NCBI RefSeq assembly: GCF_004138485.1
Contig: NZ_ML142848.1
Location: 1,028,640 to 1,092,639, forward strand
Source of the DNA: Peristeroidobacter soli
GTDB taxonomy: Bacteria > Pseudomonadota > Gammaproteobacteria > Steroidobacterales > Steroidobacteraceae
DNA: 64,000 nucleotides
Reading direction: 5' to 3'
Shown: positions 2,527 through 54,177 of the stretch, piece by piece
Layout: the number at the start of each line of letters is the position of its first letter
Position numbering within the stretch: the first letter of the stretch is position 1
Notes under the pieces: model-generated
What the model was told of the DNA's origin: nothing
Database searches by the model: none
What the model saw: the letters and a program-made list of their open reading frames with translations, nothing else
Program-made: the position numbers and the translations under genes

Positions 2527-5082
2527 TCATTTGCCCGAGCCGCCAAACTGCTTGGCGATGTCCACGAAGAAATAACGGCCGATCGCGTTCGCATTGGTGC
2601 CGTCGAAGTCATAGCCATAGTAGTTGACGAAAGGCGGCGCCTCGTCGGTCAGGTTCTGCACGCCCACGCCGATGCGCAGCCCACTCAGCCAGCCGGCCCG
2701 CCGGTCGGTGACGTACTGCGTGGACAGATCGATGGTGGTCCACGAATCGATGGGCGCCTCGAATCCCGGCCGCGTGTCCCGATAGGAGTCCACGTAGTTC
2801 ACGAATACGGTGGCGCGCAGATTGCCGCGACTCCAGCCGATCGAGTTGCGAAGTTTCAGATCCACCGGCAGATGCAACTCGTTGAGTCCCTGTCGCAGCG
2901 GCGACTCTTCGGTCAGCTGTTCCTTTTTGCGGAACAGATACGTGCCGCCGAGCCGGATGTTGAAATTGCCCAGCGCGGTGACCAACGCATAGCCCAATTC
3001 GAAGTCGAGCCCGCTCTGCTCGACGCGGGCGACGTTCGCCAACTGGTTGTGGATGATGGCGCTGACATTCGCGGCCGGCTGCAACACCTGACCAGTGCTG
3101 ATCCGCAGACGCGGATCGTCGTAGTAGGACTGCACGACCGCATCGTCGGGGTCGCGCTCGATGAAGTCGCGATATCGTTCCTCGAGCAGGAACACGTCGT
3201 AGATCGAGCCGGCCACCGGCGTGGCGATCCGATGGTCGATCTGCAAATCGAAATAGGTGAGCGTGGCCGAAAATCCTGGCAGCGCTCGCGGCGTGAAATC
3301 CAATCCCGCGGTCCAGCTCTCGGCCTTTTCGGCACGCAGGTCGCTGTTGTTCCCGCTCAGCATGATGAGCGGCGACTGGCCAGTCGGCGAGCGCGGATCC
3401 GTGACCACGTAGTAATAAGGTGTCACTGGCACCGAGACTTCGCTGGTCTCGTACAGACTCGGCGCGCGCATCGAGGTGCCATACGTCGAACGCAGGTTCA
3501 GCCCTTGCGCCGGCGACCACAGCAGGCCCAGCTTCGGATTCGTGGTCGAACCGAAGTCGCTGTAGTGGTCATAGCGACCCGCCAGCGTCAGCTCGAGACG
3601 CTCCAGGCCCGTATGCCGATTCGCTTCGCCCACGAAAGGAACCAGCACCTCGGCGAATGCGGCGGACACGTCGCGGTCGCGTGCCCCGCCGGTGGGCGCG
3701 GACGTGCCGGTCGAATCGAATGTTTCGTGACGTAAATGCACGCCCGCGGCCAGCTTCACCTGCCCGCCCGGCAACGCGAAGATCGCGCCATCCGTTTTTG
3801 CGTCGAGCGCCTGCACCGTCGTGCTCATATCGACGAGCCCGAGGCGCACATTGTTACGAATGGTGGGTTGGCTGGTGGTACTGACGCTGTAGGACCCCGC
3901 CACTTCAGCCGCCCAATCATTCGGCAGTTGCATCAGCAATGCGCCGGTGCCGCCGTACTGTGTCACCTCCACCGGCAGGGCGATCAGGGTCAGGCCGGAG
4001 TGATACGACAGATCGCTGCTGCGTTGGGTGTACATGCCGTCGGCCACGAGCTGCACGCGGTCGGTGAGCGATTGAGTGAGCGACACGAGCCCACTGTGCC
4101 GGCGCATCTCCGGAACGAGCGCCATCTCCTGAACGCTGGCGTTGCGCGTGATCTCACGTTCCTTGGTGAGCAGCGAATCCCGGTCGGAATACTCATACGT
4201 CGCCAGCACGCCGCCGGAATTCCACTGTGTGCCGAACGTCTGCCCGAGCCGGCGCTCGGCGCTGCTGCCTTCGGTCACGTCGCCATAGCGAACCCGGGTC
4301 TCGGCGCCTTCATAGTCCCTTCGCAGCACGATATTGACGACACCGCCGACCGCATCGGCGCCGTAGATCGCCGAGGCGCCATCGGTCAGCACGTCGACCC
4401 GCTCGATGGCGGCCAGCGGAATCATCGACAGGTCCACCGAATCGCCGATGCCCGCCGCCGCCAGGCGACGGCCGTTCAACAACGTCAACGTGGAATCGCT
4501 GCCGATGCCACGCAGGTTGGCGCCGGAGGAGCGGCCGAAGTTGTAATTGGAGGCTTCATCGCCGACCGTGGCGCCCATGGTGAGCTCGGAAAAGCCGCCA
4601 CCGAAGTTCTGCGGCAGGCTTTGAATGAGCTGCTGTGTGCTGGAGAACCCGGAGTCTTCGATATCCTCGCGGCTGAAAACCAACAGGGGCGCGGCACCGG
4701 TGGCGCCGCGAATGTGCGAGCCGGTGACGACGATTTCCTGAATGGCGCCGGCGTCCGACGTCGTCACGGGCTTGCCGCGAATCGCCACCGTATTCGCGTC
4801 GATGACGTCGTAGTTGAGCTGGGTGCCCTTCAGCAATGTATCCAGCGCATCGCGTGCGACCCGCTCGCCATTCACACCGGGCGTCGAGCGCCCCTCCAGC
4901 ACATCGGCCGAGCCGGTCACCTGCACTCCGGATTGCTCCGAATAGCGCAGCAGTGCCGAAGACAACTCCTGCGGCTCGATGGCGAACTTGATCCTGGACG
5001 CCAGATCGGCGGCCGCCGGCACCGGGTGCAGGCTGGCCCCCAGACACAGCAGACCGATGGCGAGACCTGTTTTAATAGTCAT
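2527..5082 (-). CDS. TonB-dependent receptor with N-terminal STN signalling domain
   Basis: 851 aa outer-membrane transducer. After a signal peptide, residues about 30-110 form an STN (secretin/TonB N-terminus) domain (IEPQELSSALLRYSEQSG) of the FecA/FpvA type, which contacts a FecR partner in the periplasm. The plug begins near EIVVTGSHI and contains a typical NGRRLAAAG ... DVLTDGASAIYGADAVGGVVNI stretch; the rest is a 22-strand-type barrel. The last strand ends in VDIAKQF followed by five more residues, slightly longer than usual. A GGGGAG Shine-Dalgarno lies upstream of the ATG. It is divergent from the sigma factor and overlaps the S9 peptidase start. The STN domain plus neighbouring sigma/anti-sigma genes indicate substrate-induced self-expression. 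The ligand cannot be read from sequence; the peptidase partner suggests a peptide. Confidence 0.93.
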   Translation of the reverse strand: MTIKTGLAIGLLCLGASLHPVPAAADLASRIKFAIEPQELSSALLRYSEQSGVQVTGSADVLEGRSTPGVNGERVARDALDTLLKGTQLNYDVIDANTVAIRGKPVTTSDAGAIQEIVVTGSHIRGATGAAPLLVFSREDIEDSGFSSTQQLIQSLPQNFGGGFSELTMGATVGDEASNYNFGRSSGANLRGIGSDSTLTLLNGRRLAAAGIGDSVDLSMIPLAAIERVDVLTDGASAIYGADAVGGVVNIVLRRDYEGAETRVRYGDVTEGSSAERRLGQTFGTQWNSGGVLATYEYSDRDSLLTKEREITRNASVQEMALVPEMRRHSGLVSLTQSLTDRVQLVADGMYTQRSSDLSYHSGLTLIALPVEVTQYGGTGALLMQLPNDWAAEVAGSYSVSTTSQPTIRNNVRLGLVDMSTTVQALDAKTDGAIFALPGGQVKLAAGVHLRHETFDSTGTSAPTGGARDRDVSAAFAEVLVPFVGEANRHTGLERLELTLAGRYDHYSDFGSTTNPKLGLLWSPAQGLNLRSTYGTSMRAPSLYETSEVSVPVTPYYYVVTDPRSPTGQSPLIMLSGNNSDLRAEKAESWTAGLDFTPRALPGFSATLTYFDLQIDHRIATPVAGSIYDVFLLEERYRDFIERDPDDAVVQSYYDDPRLRISTGQVLQPAANVSAIIHNQLANVARVEQSGLDFELGYALVTALGNFNIRLGGTYLFRKKEQLTEESPLRQGLNELHLPVDLKLRNSIGWSRGNLRATVFVNYVDSYRDTRPGFEAPIDSWTTIDLSTQYVTDRRAGWLSGLRIGVGVQNLTDEAPPFVNYYGYDFDGTNANAIGRYFFVDIAKQFGGSGK

Positions 5083-5105
5083 GCAACTCCCCAGTGATAT
5101 TCCCG

Positions 5106-5145
5106 GGGACTAGACGAATGGCGCCGCCGATAGTGAACTGAAAAA
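5106..5145 (-). promoter_or_regulatory. ECF-type promoter for the receptor-peptidase operon
   Basis: Read on the minus strand this has GTTC, 18 nt, then CGTCTAG followed by CCCC. The downstream core CGCCATTCGTCTAG (5123-5110) is an exact inverted copy of the core at 5178-5191 ahead of the sigma gene, and GTTC is placed identically in both. CGTC-type -10 elements are typical of ECF sigma promoters. The predicted start near 5104 leaves about 22 nt of leader with a good Shine-Dalgarno. The assignment to the adjacent sigma factor is inferred. Confidence 0.6.
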
Positions 5146-5159
5146 CGATGCCGCAAAAG

Positions 5160-5195
5160 AGAGTTCCGGAATGCCCTCGCCATTCGTCTAGCCCC
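5160..5195 (+). promoter_or_regulatory. ECF-type promoter for the sigma factor/FecR operon
   Basis: GTTC at 5163-5166, 18 nt, then CGTCTAG at 5185-5191 followed by CCCCC. It mirrors the receptor promoter on the other strand, including the 14-nt core CGCCATTCGTCTAG. The predicted transcription start is about 5197, right at the ATG (5198), so the message may be leaderless or nearly so. Autoregulation by the encoded sigma factor is inferred. Confidence 0.6.
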
Positions 5196-5197
5196 CG

Positions 5198-5770
5198 ATG
5201 AACGACGGAAACTTCAGCTCCGACGAATCCGAGAGCGGACCGGGAGATGCGCCCGACGCGCGCTCCCAGCGCGTCGAGCGGCTGTTCCGGGAACACAACG
5301 AGGCGCTGATCCGCTTTCTCATGTCTCGCATGCGCTCCTACCACGAAGCGCGCGAAGTGGCGCAGGAAGCCTATGTCCGCCTGCTGAGCCTGGACGATAC
5401 CGGCGCGGTCAGTTATCTCCGCGCGTTTCTGTTCAAGACCGCCGCCAACATCGCCATCGACCGACAGCGGCGCGATCACTCTTATGGCCGCGTCGATGAA
5501 TTGCCGCTGTTCCAGGAATTGACTGAGCAACGCACTCCGGAGCGGCGGGTCGCGGGCGAGCAGACACTGGCACGCCTGCAGCGGCTCATCGCCGCGTTGC
5601 CGGCCAAATGCCGCGAAGCCTTCGTGCTTCATCAGTTTCACAACATGAGTCCAGCGCAGATCGCTCAGCAGATGCGCGTTTCCGAGCGCATGGTCCGCAA
5701 ATACATCGTCCGTGCCCTCGCCCACTGCCGGGCTGGCTTGGACTCGACTGGAGGATCAGGGAATGATTGA
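5198..5770 (+). CDS. ECF sigma factor, FecI family
   Basis: 190 aa. Sigma region 2 spans about residues 27-95 (VERLFREHNEALIRFLMSRM, EAREVAQEAYVRLL, and a region with ANIAIDRQRR). Region 4 spans about 125-180 (AALPAKCREAFVLHQFHNMS, then the helix-turn-helix AQIAQQMRVSERMVRKYI). This is the normal length for FecI-type sigma factors, which direct transcription of a cognate outer-membrane receptor. No Shine-Dalgarno precedes the ATG, which sits about 7 nt after the predicted -10 element. The stop overlaps the following fecR-like start by 8 nt, implying translational coupling. Confidence 0.93.
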   Translation: MNDGNFSSDESESGPGDAPDARSQRVERLFREHNEALIRFLMSRMRSYHEAREVAQEAYVRLLSLDDTGAVSYLRAFLFKTAANIAIDRQRRDHSYGRVDELPLFQELTEQRTPERRVAGEQTLARLQRLIAALPAKCREAFVLHQFHNMSPAQIAQQMRVSERMVRKYIVRALAHCRAGLDSTGGSGND

Positions 5771-6809
5771 GCAGACAGGCGCCGATCAGGATCGCGCGCA
5801 TCTGGCAGCAGCCGAGTGGCTGCTGAAGTTGCAGGATGCGGACGTGCCGGTCGAAGAAGTCATGGCCTGGCAGCGCTGGGTGCAGGCCGATCCAAAGAAT
5901 CTGGCGGCGTTCGAGCGCATGCAGGAGATGACTCTACAGTTGCGCGCTCTGCAAACACCGGCACGGGCCGGACGCCTCGAGATGGCGCTGGACAGTTACG
6001 ACGGCTCGGTACCGGTGTCGCAATGGCGTCCACGACGACACGTCATCTTCGCCGCGGCGGCCGCGCTGCTGATCAGCGTCGTTATCGCGTGGCAAGCAAC
6101 GACTCTGCAACGAGGTCCTGTCGATGTGCTGGCGACGGCCGTCGCCGAGAATCGCATCGTCACGCTCGCCGACGGTTCCACCGTCACCTTGGGCGGCAAG
6201 ACTCAACTCGAAGTTGCATTCGATCCCAACGAACGACTCGTGACGTTGTCGAACGGCGAAGCCTTGTTCCGCGTGGCCAGGGATGCCCAGCGTCCGTTCA
6301 AGGTCCGAGCCGGCGACGCGACGGTGATCGCGCTCGGCACCGAATTCAATGTTCGCCACGGCGAGCGGCAGATCGTGGTCTCGGTGCTCGAAGGCAAGGT
6401 ACGGGTCGAGCCGACGCCCGGCATCGTGCCGCTGGCGATACGCAGGCCCTTTCAGCCGGCATTGAAACCGGTACAGGTGACGGCCGGAGAACAATCGATC
6501 GCGACCGACGCGAGCATCGGCGATGCCGAGCGATTGACCGACCCGGCGTCTGTCGTCTCCTGGCAGAAGGGCCGGCTGGCATTCCGTCGTCAGCCGCTGC
6601 GCACGGTGCTCGAAGATGTGAATCGCTATACGCCCAAACCCATCGTGCCGGCGGACGACACGGTGGGCGCTTTGCGCATCACCGGCACCGTCGACGGCAA
6701 CAACGTCACTGGATGGCTGGCGAGCCTGGAAAACGTGTTTGAATTACAAGCGGTGGAGGATGCCGATCGCATCGTGCTGCGACGTTCGGAAACGCCGCGG
6801 CACCGATGA
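5763..6809 (+). CDS. FecR-family anti-sigma/sigma regulator
   Basis: 348 aa from the ATG overlapping the sigma stop codon. The order is typical: a cytoplasmic N-terminal DUF4880-like region (AAEWLLKLQDADVPVEEVMAWQ), one membrane helix at about residues 93-112 (VIFAAAAALLISVVIAW), a periplasmic FecR domain (VTLADGSTVTLGGKTQLEV ... FRVARDAQRPFKVRAGDA), and a C-terminal STN-like region (LAFRRQPLRTVLEDVNRYTP). It should transmit receptor occupancy to the sigma factor. The longer frame starting at 5712 would overlap the sigma gene deeply and is not preferred. It converges with the PilZ-like gene, with one base between the stops. Confidence 0.92.
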   Translation: MIEQTGADQDRAHLAAAEWLLKLQDADVPVEEVMAWQRWVQADPKNLAAFERMQEMTLQLRALQTPARAGRLEMALDSYDGSVPVSQWRPRRHVIFAAAAALLISVVIAWQATTLQRGPVDVLATAVAENRIVTLADGSTVTLGGKTQLEVAFDPNERLVTLSNGEALFRVARDAQRPFKVRAGDATVIALGTEFNVRHGERQIVVSVLEGKVRVEPTPGIVPLAIRRPFQPALKPVQVTAGEQSIATDASIGDAERLTDPASVVSWQKGRLAFRRQPLRTVLEDVNRYTPKPIVPADDTVGALRITGTVDGNNVTGWLASLENVFELQAVEDADRIVLRRSETPRHR

Positions 6810-6810
6810 G

Positions 6811-7377
6811 TCATTTCTTCGGCTGACGCACGCCGGCGACCTGACGCCGATGCTTGCGGAAAGCGAGCTTCTCCAGCAGATCGGAGATATTTTCGCCCGG
6901 CGGCACGAAGCGCACCTTGACCTTACCGTCAGGGCTTACCGAAGCGATCCGGCCGAACAGCCGCAACGGATCGGCGACGCAATCGCGCAAATAGACTTCG
7001 AGCACACCCTGATTGCCCAACGGCGGGAATGGCGAAGTGCCCTGGAACACACCGCCGAGCGCGTTGAAGCGCACCGCCGCCGGCTTGGGGCGCGGACGGC
7101 TGGCGATCAGCAGCGCGCCGACCATGTCCAGCAGCAGGTTCATTTTCATTTCCAGCCGCATGATGTCGGCGGCGTGAGGCGAATTGTCGTCCGGCTTCTC
7201 GATCTGACCGTGTTCGTCGAGCGCCGCGACCGCCTGCAATACGCGCAGGTTGCGGTCGGCGAAGCTGCCGACGACGGCCGGATCGAAAGGTTCGGGCAAT
7301 GGCCTCCAGGCCACCGGCAATACGTCTTCGTAGGCCAGCTCTTCGTACAGAATGACCGTGTCCAATCCTTCATACAT
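6811..7377 (-). CDS. PilZ-like domain protein of the flagellar cluster
   Basis: 188 aa from the ATG 5 nt after the FliT-like gene stop. The N-terminal half (residues 1-100) is an alpha-helical region with LEMKMNLLLDMVGALL. The C-terminal half resembles an atypical PilZ barrel (KPAAVRFNALGGVF, GVLEVYLRDCVADPLRLFGRIASV). The canonical RxxxR and D/NxSxxG c-di-GMP motifs are not visible, so it may not bind c-di-GMP. PilZ-type proteins after fliS occur in Xanthomonas-like flagellar loci, where they affect motility. The basic tail (AFRKHRRQVAGVRQPKK) is distinctive. The longer upstream frame runs through fliT and was rejected as the start. Confidence 0.7.
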   Translation of the reverse strand: MYEGLDTVILYEELAYEDVLPVAWRPLPEPFDPAVVGSFADRNLRVLQAVAALDEHGQIEKPDDNSPHAADIMRLEMKMNLLLDMVGALLIASRPRPKPAAVRFNALGGVFQGTSPFPPLGNQGVLEVYLRDCVADPLRLFGRIASVSPDGKVKVRFVPPGENISDLLEKLAFRKHRRQVAGVRQPKK

Positions 7378-7382
7378 AGCAG

Positions 7383-7721
7383 CTACCTGCTCTGTTTGAG
7401 CAGCTCCAACATGCTGTCCACCGCGGCCGAGTCTGGCGTGTCCACCACGCCGTTCGCAACCGTTCCCTGTGTCGTCGTATCGAAGTGAGGAAAGACATTC
7501 GCGGGGGCAATCTTTGCCACCGCCGCATCCGATTCCGCCATCGCCTGCTGGAGCGCGCCCAGCCACTGACGGTCCTGTGGCGACGCGGACGCCGACAGGT
7601 TGTTCAACAATTCACGGCGCTCCTGCACCGTCTTGGGCACGTCCTGCCACTGGCCGGTCATGGCCTGCTGGACGAGCTTGTGGGTGGCGGCCAGTACGCC
7701 GTCGGCAATGATCGAGCTCAT
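7383..7721 (-). CDS. fliT: FliT-like flagellar export chaperone/hypothetical protein
   Basis: 112 aa, short and helical (MSSIIADGVLAATHKLVQQA ... RRELLNNLSASASPQDRQWL). The ATG at 7721 overlaps the fliS stop by 4 nt (ATGA), so it is translationally coupled. Position and size match the fliT slot behind fliS, where the product is a chaperone of the filament cap FliD. Sequence similarity to FliT is weak by eye, so the symbol rests mainly on context. Confidence 0.6.
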   Translation of the reverse strand: MSSIIADGVLAATHKLVQQAMTGQWQDVPKTVQERRELLNNLSASASPQDRQWLGALQQAMAESDAAVAKIAPANVFPHFDTTTQGTVANGVVDTPDSAAVDSMLELLKQSR

Positions 7722-8128
7722 CGGCCACGACCCTCCGGAGCAATCGCCAGCCACGCACCGCGGATCTCATGCAGCAGCAGGCTCACTTCGTCGAGCATCT
7801 CCACCTTGTTTTCGGTGGTGGCGAGCAGCAGGCGGCGGCACATGTAATCGTACAGCTCGGCGAGGTTGGCGGCGATCTGTCCGCCATTGCGCAGATCGAG
7901 ACTGTTGCGCAGCTCGCCGATGATGGACATGGAACGATTGATCAGACGAGCCTTCTCGGACGTCTCGTTCCGCTGCATGCAACCACGCGCGGTCGAGATG
8001 CGCTCCAGGGCGCCGTCCAGCAACATCACGATCAGGCGATGCGGGTCCGAAGCCGCCACACCACCATGCGCAGCTGCGCTCTGATAGGCGGCGAGATTCG
8101 AAGACTTTGCGTAACCCAGCATGCTCAT
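7718..8128 (-). CDS. fliS: Flagellar secretion chaperone FliS
   Basis: 136 aa, four-helix-bundle type: GYAKSSNLAAYQ near the N-terminus, then ASDPHRLIVMLLDGALERI, a family hallmark. FliS binds the C-terminus of flagellin in the cytoplasm and prevents premature polymerisation before export. The gene has its own FliA-type promoter at 8151-8177 and a GGAG 5 nt before the ATG. It heads a fliS-fliT-PilZ operon. Confidence 0.95.
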   Translation of the reverse strand: MSMLGYAKSSNLAAYQSAAAHGGVAASDPHRLIVMLLDGALERISTARGCMQRNETSEKARLINRSMSIIGELRNSLDLRNGGQIAANLAELYDYMCRRLLLATTENKVEMLDEVSLLLHEIRGAWLAIAPEGRGR

Positions 8129-8150
8129 GCTCCATCAATCCTTGAAGGGG

Positions 8151-8177
8151 GTAACGGCGTCCGCGGGGGTTACTTGA
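8151..8177 (-). promoter_or_regulatory. FliA (sigma-28) promoter upstream of fliS
   Basis: On the minus strand TCAAGTAA, 11 nt, GCCGTTAC, compared with the sigma-28 consensus TAAAGTTT-N11-GCCGATAA. The -10 is identical to that of the flgM promoter in this window. The predicted start is about 16 nt before the fliS ATG. Confidence 0.75.
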
Positions 8178-8211
8178 GGCGTCCAAACCTCAGAGTTTCC
8201 ACGCGTCAACT

Positions 8212-9588
8212 TCAATTCGGCGACCAGCTCGGCAACGAATCGATCTGCTGCGACAGGTACGCCGACGTGGACGACAGACTCGACAGCAGGGTGTCGAGCC
8301 GGGTGAACTGTTTCAGATACGTCTGCTGCACTATCTGCATGCGCAGGTCGATGTCGTCCTTTTTCTTGGTCAACGCTTTCTGCTCGGCCTGCAGGGCCTT
8401 GTTGCGCGTATCGATGGCGGCGCCGTTGGCGAGACGATCGGTGATCTGGGAGTACAGCTTCGCGGCCACGCCGGTCTCGGCGTTGCCGAACAGACGCGCC
8501 ACGCCGTCGAAGTCGCTGGACAGTGCGGCATCCAGCTTGGTGTCGTCGATGGACAGCGTGCCGTCCTTCGCCGAAGAAGTGATGCCGATGGACGCGAGCG
8601 TCTGCACGGCCGCGCCGGCTTCGGCCACCGGACTCGACAAAGTGCGGCGGATCTCGGTGTCGACGCCGGTCAGAATCGAATCGCCGAGCATCGGACCGCC
8701 AGTCTGCGAGGCGGAGTCGTAGCCGCCGAGGCGGGTCATCATGCCGCGCAGAGTGTTGTACGCGGTGACGAACGACTTGATCTTGTCCTTCGCCGCGCTC
8801 TTGTCATAACCCACTTCGATACCGACCGTCGTGCCCGGCTCGGCCGAAGCCAGGTTCAAGGTCACGCCGTCGATCACACCGGTCAGGGTGTTGGTCTCGC
8901 TGGTCGTCGCATAGCCCGCCACATTCACCAGTGCGTCCTGTGCCGCACGCAGCTGGGTGTAGTTCGCCGTGTTGGTGGTGGTGTACTCGAGCGCCGACAG
9001 CGTGCCCGCCTGCGTCACTTGAATCGCGTTGGCGGCACCGGTCTTGGTCGACGTGAGCACCAGGTGCGCGCCGTCGGCTGCATTGATGATCGAGGCGCTG
9101 ACACCGGGATTGCTGGTGGACGAATTGATGGCGTTGCGAATGTCGGCGAGCGTGTTGGCCGGATCGGCGATGCCGACGCTGAAGCTGGTGGCACCGAGCG
9201 AAATCGTCAGCGTGCCGGAGCCGACCACCGTGGTGGCACCGCCGGCGAACGCCGTCGATGAAATCTGCTGCGAGCTCGCCAGTTGCTCGACTTCGATATC
9301 GTAGCGGCCCGGCGCGGCAGTGGCCGTGGCGGTGGCGGTCACGATGTCCGCATCGGTGCTGGTCGTGGAACGACCGCTGAACACGTTGGTGGTTTTCAGT
9401 CCGTTCAACGCGCCCTGAAACGTCGACAGCGCACCCAGCAAGGCGCTGGTCGCGGAGATCTGCAGCGTGTTCTTGGAAACAGCACGCGCCAGCTGATCGT
9501 CCAGCGGTTTGCGCTCGGCCGCGACCAGCTGGGACACCAGACTGTTCACGTCGATCGACGAGCCGCCCACCACGCCTGAAGTTGCCAT
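8212..9588 (-). CDS. fliD: Flagellar filament cap/hook-associated protein 2 FliD
   Basis: 458 aa. The N-terminal family signature is VVGGSSIDVNSLVSQLVAAE with RKPLDDQLARA; the C-terminal coiled coil (NKALQAEQKALTKKKDDI) is followed by QQTYLKQFTRLDTLLSSLSS. FliD forms the cap at the filament tip that folds exported flagellin. It lies 19 nt downstream of flaG in the filament operon; its chaperone candidate fliT is two genes further. Confidence 0.96.
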   Translation of the reverse strand: MATSGVVGGSSIDVNSLVSQLVAAERKPLDDQLARAVSKNTLQISATSALLGALSTFQGALNGLKTTNVFSGRSTTSTDADIVTATATATAAPGRYDIEVEQLASSQQISSTAFAGGATTVVGSGTLTISLGATSFSVGIADPANTLADIRNAINSSTSNPGVSASIINAADGAHLVLTSTKTGAANAIQVTQAGTLSALEYTTTNTANYTQLRAAQDALVNVAGYATTSETNTLTGVIDGVTLNLASAEPGTTVGIEVGYDKSAAKDKIKSFVTAYNTLRGMMTRLGGYDSASQTGGPMLGDSILTGVDTEIRRTLSSPVAEAGAAVQTLASIGITSSAKDGTLSIDDTKLDAALSSDFDGVARLFGNAETGVAAKLYSQITDRLANGAAIDTRNKALQAEQKALTKKKDDIDLRMQIVQQTYLKQFTRLDTLLSSLSSTSAYLSQQIDSLPSWSPN

Positions 9589-9607
9589 CGTCTGTTTCCT
9601 TGTTCCG

Positions 9608-9964
9608 TTACACGGTCTGATCGATCAGACCGGTGTGCGCCTTGCCGCCCAGGTTGTGCGCCAGGCGCATGATTTCTTCCGAGGGGATCTGCCGGATGGT
9701 CTCGCCAGTGTTCTTGTCCTTGACCGTGACCACCGTGCGACCGCTGTCCTCGTCGATCCGAAATTCCAGGTAACGATTCATGCTCTGCATGTATGTTTCC
9801 AGCTGCTGAGCCGCGCGCTTCACCTCTTCGGTGGAAGGCTCGGCCGGCTGGCGAACGGGCGTCGCTTCGGCAGCCGCGGTCGGCTGCGGAAATGACGGCG
9901 AGCGGGGAGATCTTGCGATCTCCCCGCCCGCTTCGACCTGACTTGCGTCAAGCCTGCTCATCAT
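9608..9964 (-). CDS. flaG: FlaG family flagellar protein
   Basis: 118 aa. The conserved half is residues 60-115: MQSMNRYLEFRIDEDSGRTV, VTVKDKNTGETIRQIPSEEI, MRLAH. This is the FlaG domain, found between fliC and fliD in many polarly flagellated bacteria and linked to filament length. The N-terminal 45 residues are low-complexity (SPRSPSFPQPTAAAEATP) and are encoded over a strong GC-rich hairpin. A later start cannot be excluded because the conserved domain begins well inside. Confidence 0.88.
   Translation of the reverse strand: MMSRLDASQVEAGGEIARSPRSPSFPQPTAAAEATPVRQPAEPSTEEVKRAAQQLETYMQSMNRYLEFRIDEDSGRTVVTVKDKNTGETIRQIPSEEIMRLAHNLGGKAHTGLIDQTV
9902..9927 (-). terminator. Strong stem-loop inside the 5' part of flaG, possible fliC attenuator/terminator
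   Basis: Perfect 11-bp stem (GCGGGGAGATC against GATCTCCCCGC) with a 4-nt loop, starting about 57 nt after the fliC stop codon and inside flaG codons 13-21. No long T tract follows on the minus strand, so efficiency is uncertain. Confidence 0.5.
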
Positions 9965-9983
9965 TCACTCCGTGGAGTGCTCA

Positions 9984-11408
9984 TTAGCCGCGGAGCAGCG
10001 AGAGCACGTTCTGCGGAGCCGAGTTCGCCTGCGCGACCATCGCCGTACCTGCCTGCTGCAGGATCTGCGACTTGGTCATGGCGGCCGTTTCAGACGCGAA
10101 GTCCGCGTCCTGAATTCGGCTGCGCGAAGCAGTCAAGTTCTCGGCAGTGGTCTGCAGCGAGGCAACGACCGACTGGAAGCGGTTCTGCGTGGCACCGAGC
10201 GAAGCGCGAGCGCCGCTGATCTGGCCGAGGGCGGCGTCGATCGAGGCCAGCGCGTTACGCGCATTGTCAGCAGTCGTCACGTCGATCGCGGAGATCGCAG
10301 TGCCGCTCGGGCCGACGCCGATGGCGGCGTTGCCCAGACCCGTGGTCGCCGTGCCACCGAAAGTGATCGCCGTGACGCTGCTCGGAGCGACATAGTCGAT
10401 ATCGAACGTCGCGGTGACCGCGGTGGTCAGGCCGCCGAGGCCCACGTCACCCAACGTCGAACCACCGGCAGCGGTGAAGTTCGTGATGGAGATGTTACGA
10501 CCGTCGGCCGCCGTCAAGCGCAGACCGGTGCCCGTATCCGTCGCCGTCACGCCCGTGGCGGCCGACTGTGCGTTGATCGCGGCGAGCGAGTTGGAAATGT
10601 TGCTGGCAGCGCTGGCCGAAGTGGCCACCGAAATGTTGATGCCGTTGAGGCTGAACGTCGTGGTGCCGGCACTGGCCGCAGCGGCGCCCGTCAGGGTACC
10701 GGAGGCAACCGTAGCGTCGGCATGCGCGGTCAAGCCGGTGATGCCCTGCGAGTTGATCGCGTTGACCAACGAGCGGGTGTCGGAGAACGTCGCGCCGCCG
10801 CCAATGTTGACCGCACCGCCGCCGGTGTCGACCGAGAACGTACCGGCGGCGGTAAACGTCTGGTTCTGACGTGTGACGCCGTTGAACGCACCGAGCGCCG
10901 CCGAGCGGGCATTGGTGATCGAAGAGACCGTGATCTGGTCGGTGGCGGTCGCGTTGGCGCCGACCTGGAAGGTCTGAGCCTGGAACGAGCCGTCCAGCAG
11001 CTTCACGCCGTTGAACGAAGAGGCCTGCGCAACGCGGTCGATTTCTTCCGCGAGCTGCTGCACTTCGGCGTTCAAGGCAGCGCGGTCGGAGGCGCTGTTG
11101 GACGCGTTGGCGGACTGCACCGCCAGTTCGCGCATACGCTGCAGGTTGTTGCCGATCTGCGAGAGGTCGCCTTCGGCCGTCTGCGCAAGGGAGATACCGT
11201 CGTTCGCGTTACGAGCAGCGACCGTGAGGCCGTTGATCTGCGAGGTCAGACGCTCAGAGATGGCGAGACCGGCGGCGTCGTCCTTCGCGCTGTTGATGCG
11301 CAGACCGGAAGACAGACGCTGCAGGGAGGTCGCCAAAGAATTGGCGGATGTCGACAGGTTACGCTGAGCGTTCAGCGACATCACGTTCGTGTTGATTACA
11401 AGTGCCAT
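9984..11408 (-). CDS. fliC: Flagellin
   Basis: 474 aa. The conserved D0/D1 N-terminus ([38 protein letters not shown]) and C-terminus ([36 protein letters not shown]) flank a variable Ala/Thr/Gly-rich central domain. This is the main filament subunit, exported by the flagellar type III system with FliS as chaperone. An AGGAG lies 9 nt before the ATG, with a 95-nt leader from a FliA promoter. Only one flagellin gene is present in the window. Confidence 0.97.
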
Positions 11409-11510
11409 GAAACAAACTCCTGGTGATTACGTTGCCGTAAGACCCCAAGTCTTCCGGCTTGCATCTCAGCACTGACGGCGTGATGTGCGCCGGACTGCTG
11501 TTCAAGTGCT

Positions 11511-11537
11511 GTATCGGTGCGACCACCTGGAACTTGA
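11511..11537 (-). promoter_or_regulatory. FliA (sigma-28) promoter of fliC
   Basis: Minus-strand TCAAGTTC, 11 nt, ACCGATAC, a close match to TAAAGTTT-N11-GCCGATAA. The predicted start near 11504 gives a leader of about 95 nt before fliC. The rest of 11409-11640 shows no gene. Confidence 0.8.
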
Positions 11538-11640
11538 GTGGGTGTTACCACATCGATGAAAAGTGAGCACTCGGTCACGGACAGCGGCTTAACAGTGGCG
11601 AGCAAAGGGTAAAAAGCCTACGCAGCAACGCTCTGACACA

Positions 11641-11671
11641 TGATCGAAAGCGGCCGAGGCCCTTTCGATCA
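11641..11671 (-). terminator. Stem-loop terminator after flgL
   Basis: TGATCGAAAG pairs with CTTTCGATCA (10 bp) around an inner GGCC-GA-GGCC stem, 7 nt beyond the flgL stop. It separates the long flg operon from fliC, which has its own promoter. There is no clear T tract. Confidence 0.6.
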
Positions 11672-11677
11672 GCGCTA

Positions 11678-12886
11678 TCAACTCAGATAGTTGAACAGCG
11701 ACAGATTGGAGATCTTGCTGTAGGACAGCTGCGCCGCCTGCAAGCCCACCAGTTGTTGATTCATTTTGGTGAGCGCCTGCGCATAGTCCAGATCGCGCAG
11801 ATCGGACAGCGCGCTGGCCGTATCGATATCCATCGATTCGCGCGAGGAATCCGCGGAATCGAGCCTCGCGAGCCGGGTGCCGACTTCAGCGCGCACGCCG
11901 AGGAAATGATCGCTCGCTTGATCCAGCTGTTGTAACGAACCGGAGAGCGTCGAGGTCAGTTTGGCGTTCGCGGCGGCGTTGCCCGCCGGCTGCCGCAGCA
12001 GATCGACGACGTTGCCGATCGTTTCGAAAACGCTTTCGCTGCGGCTGCGGTTCACGGTGAAGGTATCGCCCGTCGCGGGCGCGCCCGAGACAGTGACGTT
12101 CACGCCGTTGAATGTAATGGCGCTGCCGGCGGTGTAAGTGCCGGTCTGCACGACGTTCGCCGGCGTGGCACCGTCGGTGATCTGATAGGCGGTCGGCGAT
12201 GTGAAAGTGATGGTGTAGTCGTCCGGCACCCAGCTGGCCCGATCCACCACCGAGCCCACGTCGATCGACCCCGAGCCGGTGTTGCTCATGTTCACGGCGG
12301 TCGAGAACGTGCCGTTGCCTTCGGGAATGTTCATGAACACGTCGTAGCCGTTGTGACTGTCGGCCATGCGCTGCGTGCTGGAGATCTGCAGCTGCCGCGA
12401 GCCCTGATCGGCCACGTAGCTGATCGCCGAGCCCGAGCCGCCCGCGAACGGCTGCGTCCTGGTCGAATAGCCCGAGAACAGATATTCGCCGTTGCCGTCC
12501 TGACGATTGGCGATGTCCTGGATTTCGTCCAGACGTTGCGCCAGCTCGGTCGCGATGGACTTGCGATCGGTGTCGCTCAACGTGGCGGTGTTGCCCGCCG
12601 ACACCATCAGCTCGCGCACGCGGCCCATCGCGTTGCTCATATCGACGAACGCCTGCTCCTCGAGATTCAGACGATTCTTCGCCAGCGTGCTGTTCTTCGC
12701 GAACTGCTCCGACTCGGACTGCGAGCGCTGCAGTTCCTGGATGTGCACGTAGGCGATCGGATCGTCGGCCGGCGTGGTGACGCGCAAGCCGAGCGCCATC
12801 TGGTTCTGCAGCTTCGCGAGCCCCGACTGCTGCTCCAGCATCGCGCTGAGCGAGCCCATCGAAAAACCGAGAGTGGACATACGCAT
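11678..12886 (-). CDS. flgL: Flagellar hook-associated protein 3 FlgL
   Basis: 402 aa from the ATG at 12886 (MRMSTLGFSMGSLSAMLEQQ), preceded by GAGG at 9 nt; a TTG two codons upstream is possible. The flagellin-like N-terminal helix is followed by LRVTTPADDPIAYVHIQELQ. The C-terminus (LSDLRDLDYAQALTKMNQQL, LQAAQLSYSKISNLSLFNYL) is typical. FlgL forms the junction between FlgK and the filament. It is the last gene of the operon read from flgB. Confidence 0.95.
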   Translation of the reverse strand: MRMSTLGFSMGSLSAMLEQQSGLAKLQNQMALGLRVTTPADDPIAYVHIQELQRSQSESEQFAKNSTLAKNRLNLEEQAFVDMSNAMGRVRELMVSAGNTATLSDTDRKSIATELAQRLDEIQDIANRQDGNGEYLFSGYSTRTQPFAGGSGSAISYVADQGSRQLQISSTQRMADSHNGYDVFMNIPEGNGTFSTAVNMSNTGSGSIDVGSVVDRASWVPDDYTITFTSPTAYQITDGATPANVVQTGTYTAGSAITFNGVNVTVSGAPATGDTFTVNRSRSESVFETIGNVVDLLRQPAGNAAANAKLTSTLSGSLQQLDQASDHFLGVRAEVGTRLARLDSADSSRESMDIDTASALSDLRDLDYAQALTKMNQQLVGLQAAQLSYSKISNLSLFNYLS

Positions 12887-12963
12887 GTTCAAACCTCTTC
12901 TCGAGCAGCCGTCCCTGGAACGTTAGCCAGCCGTTACATCCGTGTACCGGCGTTCGCCCGGAC

Positions 12964-53715: not shown

Positions 53716-54177
53716 ATGGCGAAGAAACGCGCTCGGGGCCGTCCGTCGACAGGATCAGCGATGTCCGCTGCCGAGCGGATGCGTCGTCTGCGCGAACGAA
53801 AAAAAGCCGCCGGACTGAGACCCGTCGTCGCCTGGGTTGCCGCGGAATCCGCTGCGCCGGCGACCTACTCGTCACATCGCCTGCTGGAGGCTCGCAGCCT
53901 CGCGATGCATGCGGTCATTGCTCGAAAGATCGAGCGCGATCCGAAGCTGTTGCAAGTTGCCCGAGGCAACGTCGAACGCTGGAGCGCCCAGCGAAATGAC
54001 CAGCGACCAGCATGGCTGGACGAATGGCGCGAACTTTTGAATCAGCCGTGGGCGAACATCGCGGCGCTCATCACCGAGCCCAGCGAGAACGGCGCGCGGC
54101 TGCGCCAGTCTTCCCCCTTCGCTGGGATACTCACCAACCAGGAACGATGGCGCATCCATGAAGCGTTCCGAGCTTGA
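53716..54177 (+). CDS. Hypothetical basic protein, candidate antitoxin/regulator
   Basis: 153 aa. A strongly basic N-terminus (MAKKRARGRPSTGSAMSAAE, RMRRLRERKKAAGLRPV) resembles DNA-binding segments of small antitoxins. The rest is helical (ARSLAMHAVIARKIERDPKL, LLNQPWANIAALITEPS) and ends SSPFAGILTNQERWRIHEAF. Some of its C-terminal half recalls antitoxins paired with nucleotidyltransferases. It overlaps the next gene by 20 nt, so translation is coupled. No firm family call. Confidence 0.7.
   Translation: MAKKRARGRPSTGSAMSAAERMRRLRERKKAAGLRPVVAWVAAESAAPATYSSHRLLEARSLAMHAVIARKIERDPKLLQVARGNVERWSAQRNDQRPAWLDEWRELLNQPWANIAALITEPSENGARLRQSSPFAGILTNQERWRIHEAFRA

Follow-up and report, generated by a model that had tools for sequence, protein, structure and literature searches.

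Paired copies of a probable ECF promoter, private and putatively autoregulatory, at a FecI/FecR/TonB receptor locus of Peristeroidobacter soli

The closest described counterparts of the locus analyzed here are the E. coli FecI/FecR/FecA system and the HasI and HemI systems, with which it shares an ECF sigma factor, a FecR-type regulator and a TonB receptor whose gene is activated, here by prediction, by the sigma factor. In the available portions of the respective reports, fecIR and hasI are described as not autoregulated (PMC9249621), and so is hemI, a result connected there with a receptor defect (PMC12772443). ECF sigma factors in general are usually autoregulated, with the FecI-like ones excepted, and ~55% of the ECFs are predicted to be autoregulated, as far as the accessible text of the survey goes (PMC8103513); the FecI-like groups ECF05-10, being held non-autoregulating, were excluded from promoter mining according to the available part of another study (PMC3817407). 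A search of the accessible literature combining Steroidobacter, sigma factor and TonB found no papers. The 2021 reclassification of the ECF sigma factors reportedly may assign FecI-like groups with predicted autoregulation.

The focal genes lie at the left end of the window, i.e. the whole 64,000-nt stretch of DNA that was analyzed. On the minus strand, a TonB-dependent receptor gene with an N-terminal STN-like signalling domain (2527-5082, 851 aa) is followed by a gene for an S9 (prolyl oligopeptidase) family peptidase (5-2530, 841 aa), the frame of which overlaps the end of the receptor gene. On the plus strand, the gene of a FecI-type ECF sigma factor (5198-5770, 190 aa) is overlapped by that of a FecR-type anti-sigma factor or regulator (5712-6809, 365 aa). 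The sigma factor has sigma-70 regions 2 and 4 only, the domain content of an ECF, with PF04542 and PF08281 above the cut-off and TIGR02937 at 78.8 bits against a cut-off of 42.9, and the adjoining regulator matches the FecR domain PF04773 at 80.2 bits against 24. The plug and the barrel of the receptor are above the cut-off; the STN domain, at 24.4 bits, is under the Pfam cut-off of 28.4, and the sigma factor reaches 78.9 bits against the 260 required by the FecI (ferric citrate) equivalog NF041727. Because both of these matches fall short, the label ‘FecI-type’ rests on the gene context and on FecR, and no role in ferric citrate uptake is claimed for the focal system. A lasso-peptide isopeptidase locus, which likewise combines a receptor, an S9 peptidase and FecI/FecR, was considered and rejected (Atxe2-family model NF033523, 84.8 bits against 400). 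Beyond the FecR gene lies a convergent flagellar block (6811-12892, minus strand) with Pfam matches to a PilZ-like protein, FliS, FliD and flagellin, in which the 404-aa frame at 11678-12892 is flagellin-like as judged from sequence only.

Compared with E. coli FecI/FecR/FecA, the signalling domain of the focal receptor is only weakly matched. Unlike fecIR, hasI and hemI, reported in the available texts as not autoregulated, the focal sigma gene bears a predicted copy of the promoter of its receptor. With the classical autoregulated ECFs, the locus shares a putative bipartite promoter of its own 5' of the sigma gene, the letters of which follow domains 2 and 4 in those ECFs as described in the accessible parts of two studies (PMC3817407, PMC8103513); it differs from them in having a FecR-type regulator and, as its predicted second target, a TonB receptor gene. 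Another point of comparison, and a precedent that runs counter to the view of such systems as non-autoregulated, is LIC_12757/LIC_12756 of Leptospira interrogans, an ECF sigma factor with a FecR-like regulator for which positive autoregulation has been reported and which also has CGT in the -10 element (PMC12155086); it stands alone, as opposed to a family of paralogues with predicted private promoter pairs, and the available portion of the source assigns no TonB receptor to it.

The DNA between the receptor and sigma genes contains a 14-nt core, CTAGACGAATGGCG, at 5110-5123 (plus strand), that recurs inverted at 5178-5191 (minus strand). The cores are parts of two 20-nt arms, 5104-5123 and 5178-5197, that are complementary at 19 positions (95%, one mismatch) with 54 nt between them. 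Both strands read GTTC-N18-CGTCTAG, with GTTC-N18-CGTCTA at 5138-5111 (minus strand) and 5163-5190 (plus strand), and each copy has a C run on its 3' side (GCCCCCG and GTCCCCG). The core, its inverted recurrence, the GTTC-N18-CGTCTAG pattern and the C run had been pointed out in the sequence-only reading, and all of them, coordinates included, are exact. The longest exact inverted repeat, 14 nt, exceeds the maximum of 10 in 1500 dinucleotide shuffles of 5083-5197, and the bipartite mirror score of the region is 19 compared with a maximum of 17 in 100 shuffles. The bare pattern GTTC-N16-20-CGTCTA on its own is weak evidence: it has 2 matches in the window, and at least two are also found in 6 of 100 shuffles. 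Across the 9.37-Mb genome, the mismatch-free 14-mer is present only in the two focal places. A copy with one mismatch (CTGGACGAATGGCG) is located at 54016-54029 of the window.

A motif closely matching this arrangement was recovered blindly upstream of related sigma factors. Sigma factors were collected from 80 loci that encode relatives and from the neighborhoods of this genome's 104 FecR matches. The 93 that resemble the focal sigma factor most closely, with scores of ≥105 bits, include 14 encoded in this genome; expectation maximization (EM) was applied to 92 of them, the upstream region of the remaining one being too short. On the sigma-side strand of these regions, EM converged on a 36-nt motif of the approximate form AT/GT-T-N-C-C-R-A-W-T, ~13 variable bases and CGTCTWA, with a log-likelihood of 765 versus 218–233 for three shuffled sets (run with fewer restarts) and 229 and 243 for two sets run with equal effort. 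The motif places the focal site at 5162-5197 (plus strand; -35 AGTTCC with GTTC at 5163-5166, N18, -10 CGTCTA at 5185-5190; 19.4 bits), which is the site proposed in the sequence-only reading. The predicted receptor-side promoter at 5104-5139 (minus strand; GTTC at 5138-5135, N18, -10 CGTCTA at 5116-5111) scores 15.5 bits with a matrix trained on the sigma-side strand only. Sites of at least 10 bits were found in 70 of the 92 regions (69 of them distinct), and the other 22 are without a good site. A fixed distance combined with a variable spacer sequence is the appearance expected of an ECF promoter, and the promoter motif of its relatives stands directly upstream of the focal sigma gene, as in autoregulated ECFs.

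The sole candidate start of the sigma gene, the ATG at 5198, lies 7 nt 3' of CGTCTA, so that the sigma mRNA is probably leaderless. An in-frame ATG 6–8 nt past the -10 element is present in 11 of the 69 related sigma loci (an out-of-frame one in 2), and a subset of the related sigma mRNAs may be leaderless as well. The ATG of the receptor gene is preceded by CTGGGGAG, and the receptor has a leader with GGGGAG.

The related loci also contain two copies, mirror images where the genes diverge and direct repeats where they are in tandem. In this search, the second site was sought with the EM matrix, on the opposite strand if the receptor gene is divergent and in the gap between fecR and the receptor gene if it is in tandem. 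A sigma site of ≥10 bits is accompanied by a recognized receptor in 53 loci; the receptor-side site also reaches 10 bits in 34 of them, and none does so in the other 19; at the 7-bit threshold, 10 of the 11 divergent loci have a receptor-side site. In 17 more sigma-site loci, the profile recognizes no receptor; the opposite strand of nine of them carries a mirror site scoring 7 bits or more, which in L098 agrees at 10/10 and 11/12 positions.

The two copies at a locus resemble each other more than they resemble the copies at other loci. For this comparison, the 39 pairs whose receptor-side site reaches 7 bits were reduced to 38 by removing one near-duplicate; the set still includes a few close relatives. 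Identity in the -35 block is 7.63 of 10 within loci versus 4.80 between loci, and in the five bases 5' of CGT, 2.63 versus 1.62 (0 of 20,000 permutations in both cases). For the spacer, the values are 3.00 versus 2.51 of 8 (223 of 20,000), with no excess in the divergent loci alone (3.00 versus 3.00). When the receptor filter is lifted (53 loci), the -35 excess persists (6.75 versus 4.53; 0 of 20,000) along with a small spacer excess (2.92 versus 2.42; 40 of 20,000), and if only the nine pairs of this genome are considered, the -35 block gives 7.11 versus 5.40 (2 of 20,000). The within-locus excess peaks inside the -35 element, at its positions 1, 2, 3 and 6, and increases again just before CGT. 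In 19 loci, the distance between the CGT cores ranges from 51 to 93 nt, so that there is no conservation of the mirror geometry as such. Helical phasing between the copies shows a nominal trend only (p 0.017–0.26 over six periods, 19 loci) and is not claimed; mirror scoring of 26 divergent intergenic regions against shuffles, which has little power, yielded 5 regions at p ≤0.02. Given the direct repeats in tandem loci and the varying core distance, the proposal that the symmetry is a functional device is not supported. Symmetry and spacing look incidental, and the rule suggested by these sequences is that each sigma factor would have a promoter of its own, twice.

Two-copy matching holds in aggregate across 71 sigma/receptor loci of this genome. 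A profile search returned 103 sigma hits, of which 98 have a FecR gene directly downstream and one merely duplicates another in truncated form (L195/L196). The 104 FecR-domain matches amount to a large set of parallel surface-signalling systems in one genome. Sigma-upstream and receptor-upstream DNA were compared without a matrix in the 71 loci (55 tandem and 16 divergent), the other 32 of the 103 hits having no receptor that the profile could place. In the tandem loci, the best bipartite score is 14.60 within versus 13.46 between loci (z 10.1; 0 of 20,000), with a non-significant spacer identity (1100 of 20,000); in the divergent loci, with non-overlapping sites, the scores are 14.75 and 13.67 (1 of 20,000). 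The 60 loci outside the focal group agree (z 10.6; 0 of 20,000), with self-matching palindromes possible in the divergent part of this set, and so do the 46 tandem loci outside the group alone (z 9.2; 0 of 20,000). Individually, 21 of the 55 tandem loci reach p <0.05; the estimated pi0 is 0.58, which implies that ~40% of the tandem loci (about 42%) have a pair detectable under the fixed scoring. The own sigma region is the single best match for only 13 of the 55 tandem receptor regions.

Five of the six negative controls for this comparison (the fecI/fecR junction, the inside of fecR, the inside of the receptor gene, DNA 400 bp further up and the inside of the sigma gene) are flat. The sixth, with the receptor side reversed, is significant (z 4.5; 0 of 20,000; 7 loci at p <0.01), and therefore, in some loci, the copy near the sigma gene faces away from it. 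An away-pointing copy beside the sigma gene is found in seven tandem loci: L229, L245, L171, L162, L198, L188 and L210. In L229 (sigma gene at C5:428398), the inverted copy heads a divergent S9 peptidase gene. In L198, L171, L245 and L210, the Pfam-supported neighbor is co-directional with the sigma gene (S9 peptidase, MFS transporter, amidohydrolase and FAD oxidase), and inspection of the genes next to L162 and L188 revealed no convincing divergent gene. In this minority of loci, the sigma-near copy would not drive the sigma gene, and in L198, L171, L245 and L210, the neighbors do not seem to account for it. The two-copy rule is thus apparently wider than autoregulation.

Region 4.2 of a sigma factor reads the -35 element and region 2 reads the -10 element. 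For 64 sigmas, none of which are ≥80% alike, columns of the protein alignment were compared with promoter positions by corrected mutual information. Among the top 10 pairs that involve the -35 element, 7 are in region 4.2, compared with 2.2 expected, and the spacer contributes 0 of 10. The region-wide tests are stricter and give marginal or weaker results: the association of region 4.2 with the -35 element is equaled by 8 of 140 circular shifts, and that of region 2 with the extended -10 element by 22 of 140. The -35 variants tend to covary with region 4.2, sigma relatedness being not fully removed from this comparison. At residue 88, in region 2, Asp is paired with the C of CGTC (60 of 60 cases) and Asn is paired with T (4 of 4). 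The four sigmas with Asn in place of Asp (L134, L123, L197 and L240) have TGTC in place of CGTC in the -10 element. Residue 88 is a candidate single-residue specificity switch; other residues, F30 for example, track the same C/T change in the same four sigmas, so that shared descent may contribute.

The letters of the focal motif do not carry over to other loci. The sequence-only reading had suggested that the motif could be used to find other members of the regulon, and this use is not supported: a genome scan with GTTC-N16-20-CGTCTA gives 36 matches versus 152 for the reversed control, i.e. no enrichment, and CGCCATTCGTCTAG with up to two mismatches gives 66 versus 134. The longer pattern GTTC-N14-CATTCGTCTA with up to two mismatches has 36 matches versus 12 for the reversed control. 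At no more than one mismatch, it has five matches, namely, the focal pair and three more (L251–L253), near-perfect ones that sit within open frames; the remaining 31 have two mismatches. No true orthologue was found for comparison: of the 60 genomes searched, the other 59 gave no match to the intergenic DNA, and their nearest sigma factor is 64% identical. Judging by these searches, the predicted focal motif is private; the two-copy rule generalizes and the letters do not.

The best explanation of the two arms, to which we assign a probability of about 85%, is that a single private ECF promoter is present here twice, once for the receptor-peptidase operon and once for the sigma-fecR operon, and that the product of the sigma gene at 5198-5770 would recognize both copies. 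The proposal in the sequence-only reading that they are ECF-type promoters of the adjacent sigma factor, one per operon, gains support from the de novo motif, from the two-copy relatives and from the tendency of the -35 element to covary with region 4.2. A ligand on the TonB receptor would send a signal through FecR that makes the sigma factor active, and RNA polymerase with this sigma factor would start leftward at ~5104, into the receptor-peptidase operon, and rightward at ~5197, into the sigma-fecR operon, the second start implying positive autoregulation. Recognition by the focal sigma factor, the transcription starts, the feedback and the insulation from paralogues are what we infer from the sequences. 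The fixed ratio between the two operons that had been deduced from the symmetry is not implied, since the -35 flanks are unequal (19.4 versus 15.5 bits); moreover, the sigma side looks leaderless and the receptor side has its GGGGAG leader. More widely, the receptor-side copy is directed toward the receptor gene, whether divergent or in tandem, and pairs that match in the -35 and extended -10 elements are common among related FecI/FecR/TonB loci and can be detected in a considerable share of the ~100 paralogues, with promoter letters that differ by locus and tend to follow the DNA-binding residues of the sigma factor.

A long, near-perfect inverted repeat between divergent genes is also a common form of operator, and the arms could be read as the binding site of a dimeric regulator, which might repress or activate, instead of a pair of sigma promoters. 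The six tandem loci that have an inverted copy beside the sigma gene and no recognized divergent gene would be easier to explain in this way. However, tandem relatives carry direct repeats, each copy has a -35/-10 architecture with constant spacing and a variable spacer sequence, the distance between copies is not fixed, and the -35 letters tend to vary with region 4.2 of the sigma factor, all of which makes an operator very unlikely. An RNA hairpin, an attenuator or a chance inverted repeat has practically negligible probability: the arms could pair in a read-through transcript, but this would leave a 54-nt loop, no terminator-like site was found at the focal region, tandem relatives have direct repeats, and the shuffles fall short of the length of the repeat.

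A different possibility is that only the receptor-side copy works, the sigma-side copy being weak or a relic, and that sigma-fecR is transcribed from a promoter of the Fur/sigma-70 type as in E. coli fec. The absence of autoregulation reported for fecIR, hasI and hemI in the available texts fits this scenario, as do the seven loci of this genome with an away-pointing copy. Nevertheless, it appears unlikely for the focal locus, where the sigma-side copy outscores the receptor-side one, a simple consensus scan of 5000-5260 found no sigma-70-type site, and the motif itself was learned from the sigma-side strand alone.

What appears to be new, on the evidence of these sequence comparisons, is the existence of FecI/FecR/TonB loci that are probably autoregulated through private two-copy promoters, many of them in this one genome. 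The broadest form of this view, that the genome holds ~100 FecI/FecR-type switches, that the majority are autoregulated by way of a private two-copy promoter, and that sigma factors and promoter pairs have co-diverged to the point of mutual insulation, would make the set a natural orthogonal library; we advance it tentatively, at a little less than even odds. Such a library would resemble the orthogonal ECF sets of Rhodius et al. (2013) in comprising many sigma/promoter pairs with little crosstalk; as the accessible part of that report describes them, the pairs came from many genomes and were tested in E. coli (PMC3817407), whereas here they are predicted ones from the paralogues of one genome. 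If the reading is true, each such locus contains its promoter twice, next to the sigma factor that presumably recognizes it, and the way in which ~100 paralogues are insulated from each other would become testable; the generalization that FecI-like sigmas do not autoregulate fails for this group, the promoters left out of promoter mining on that ground would be readable directly through the two-copy rule, and dozens of separate self-reinforcing switches may operate in parallel in this bacterium.
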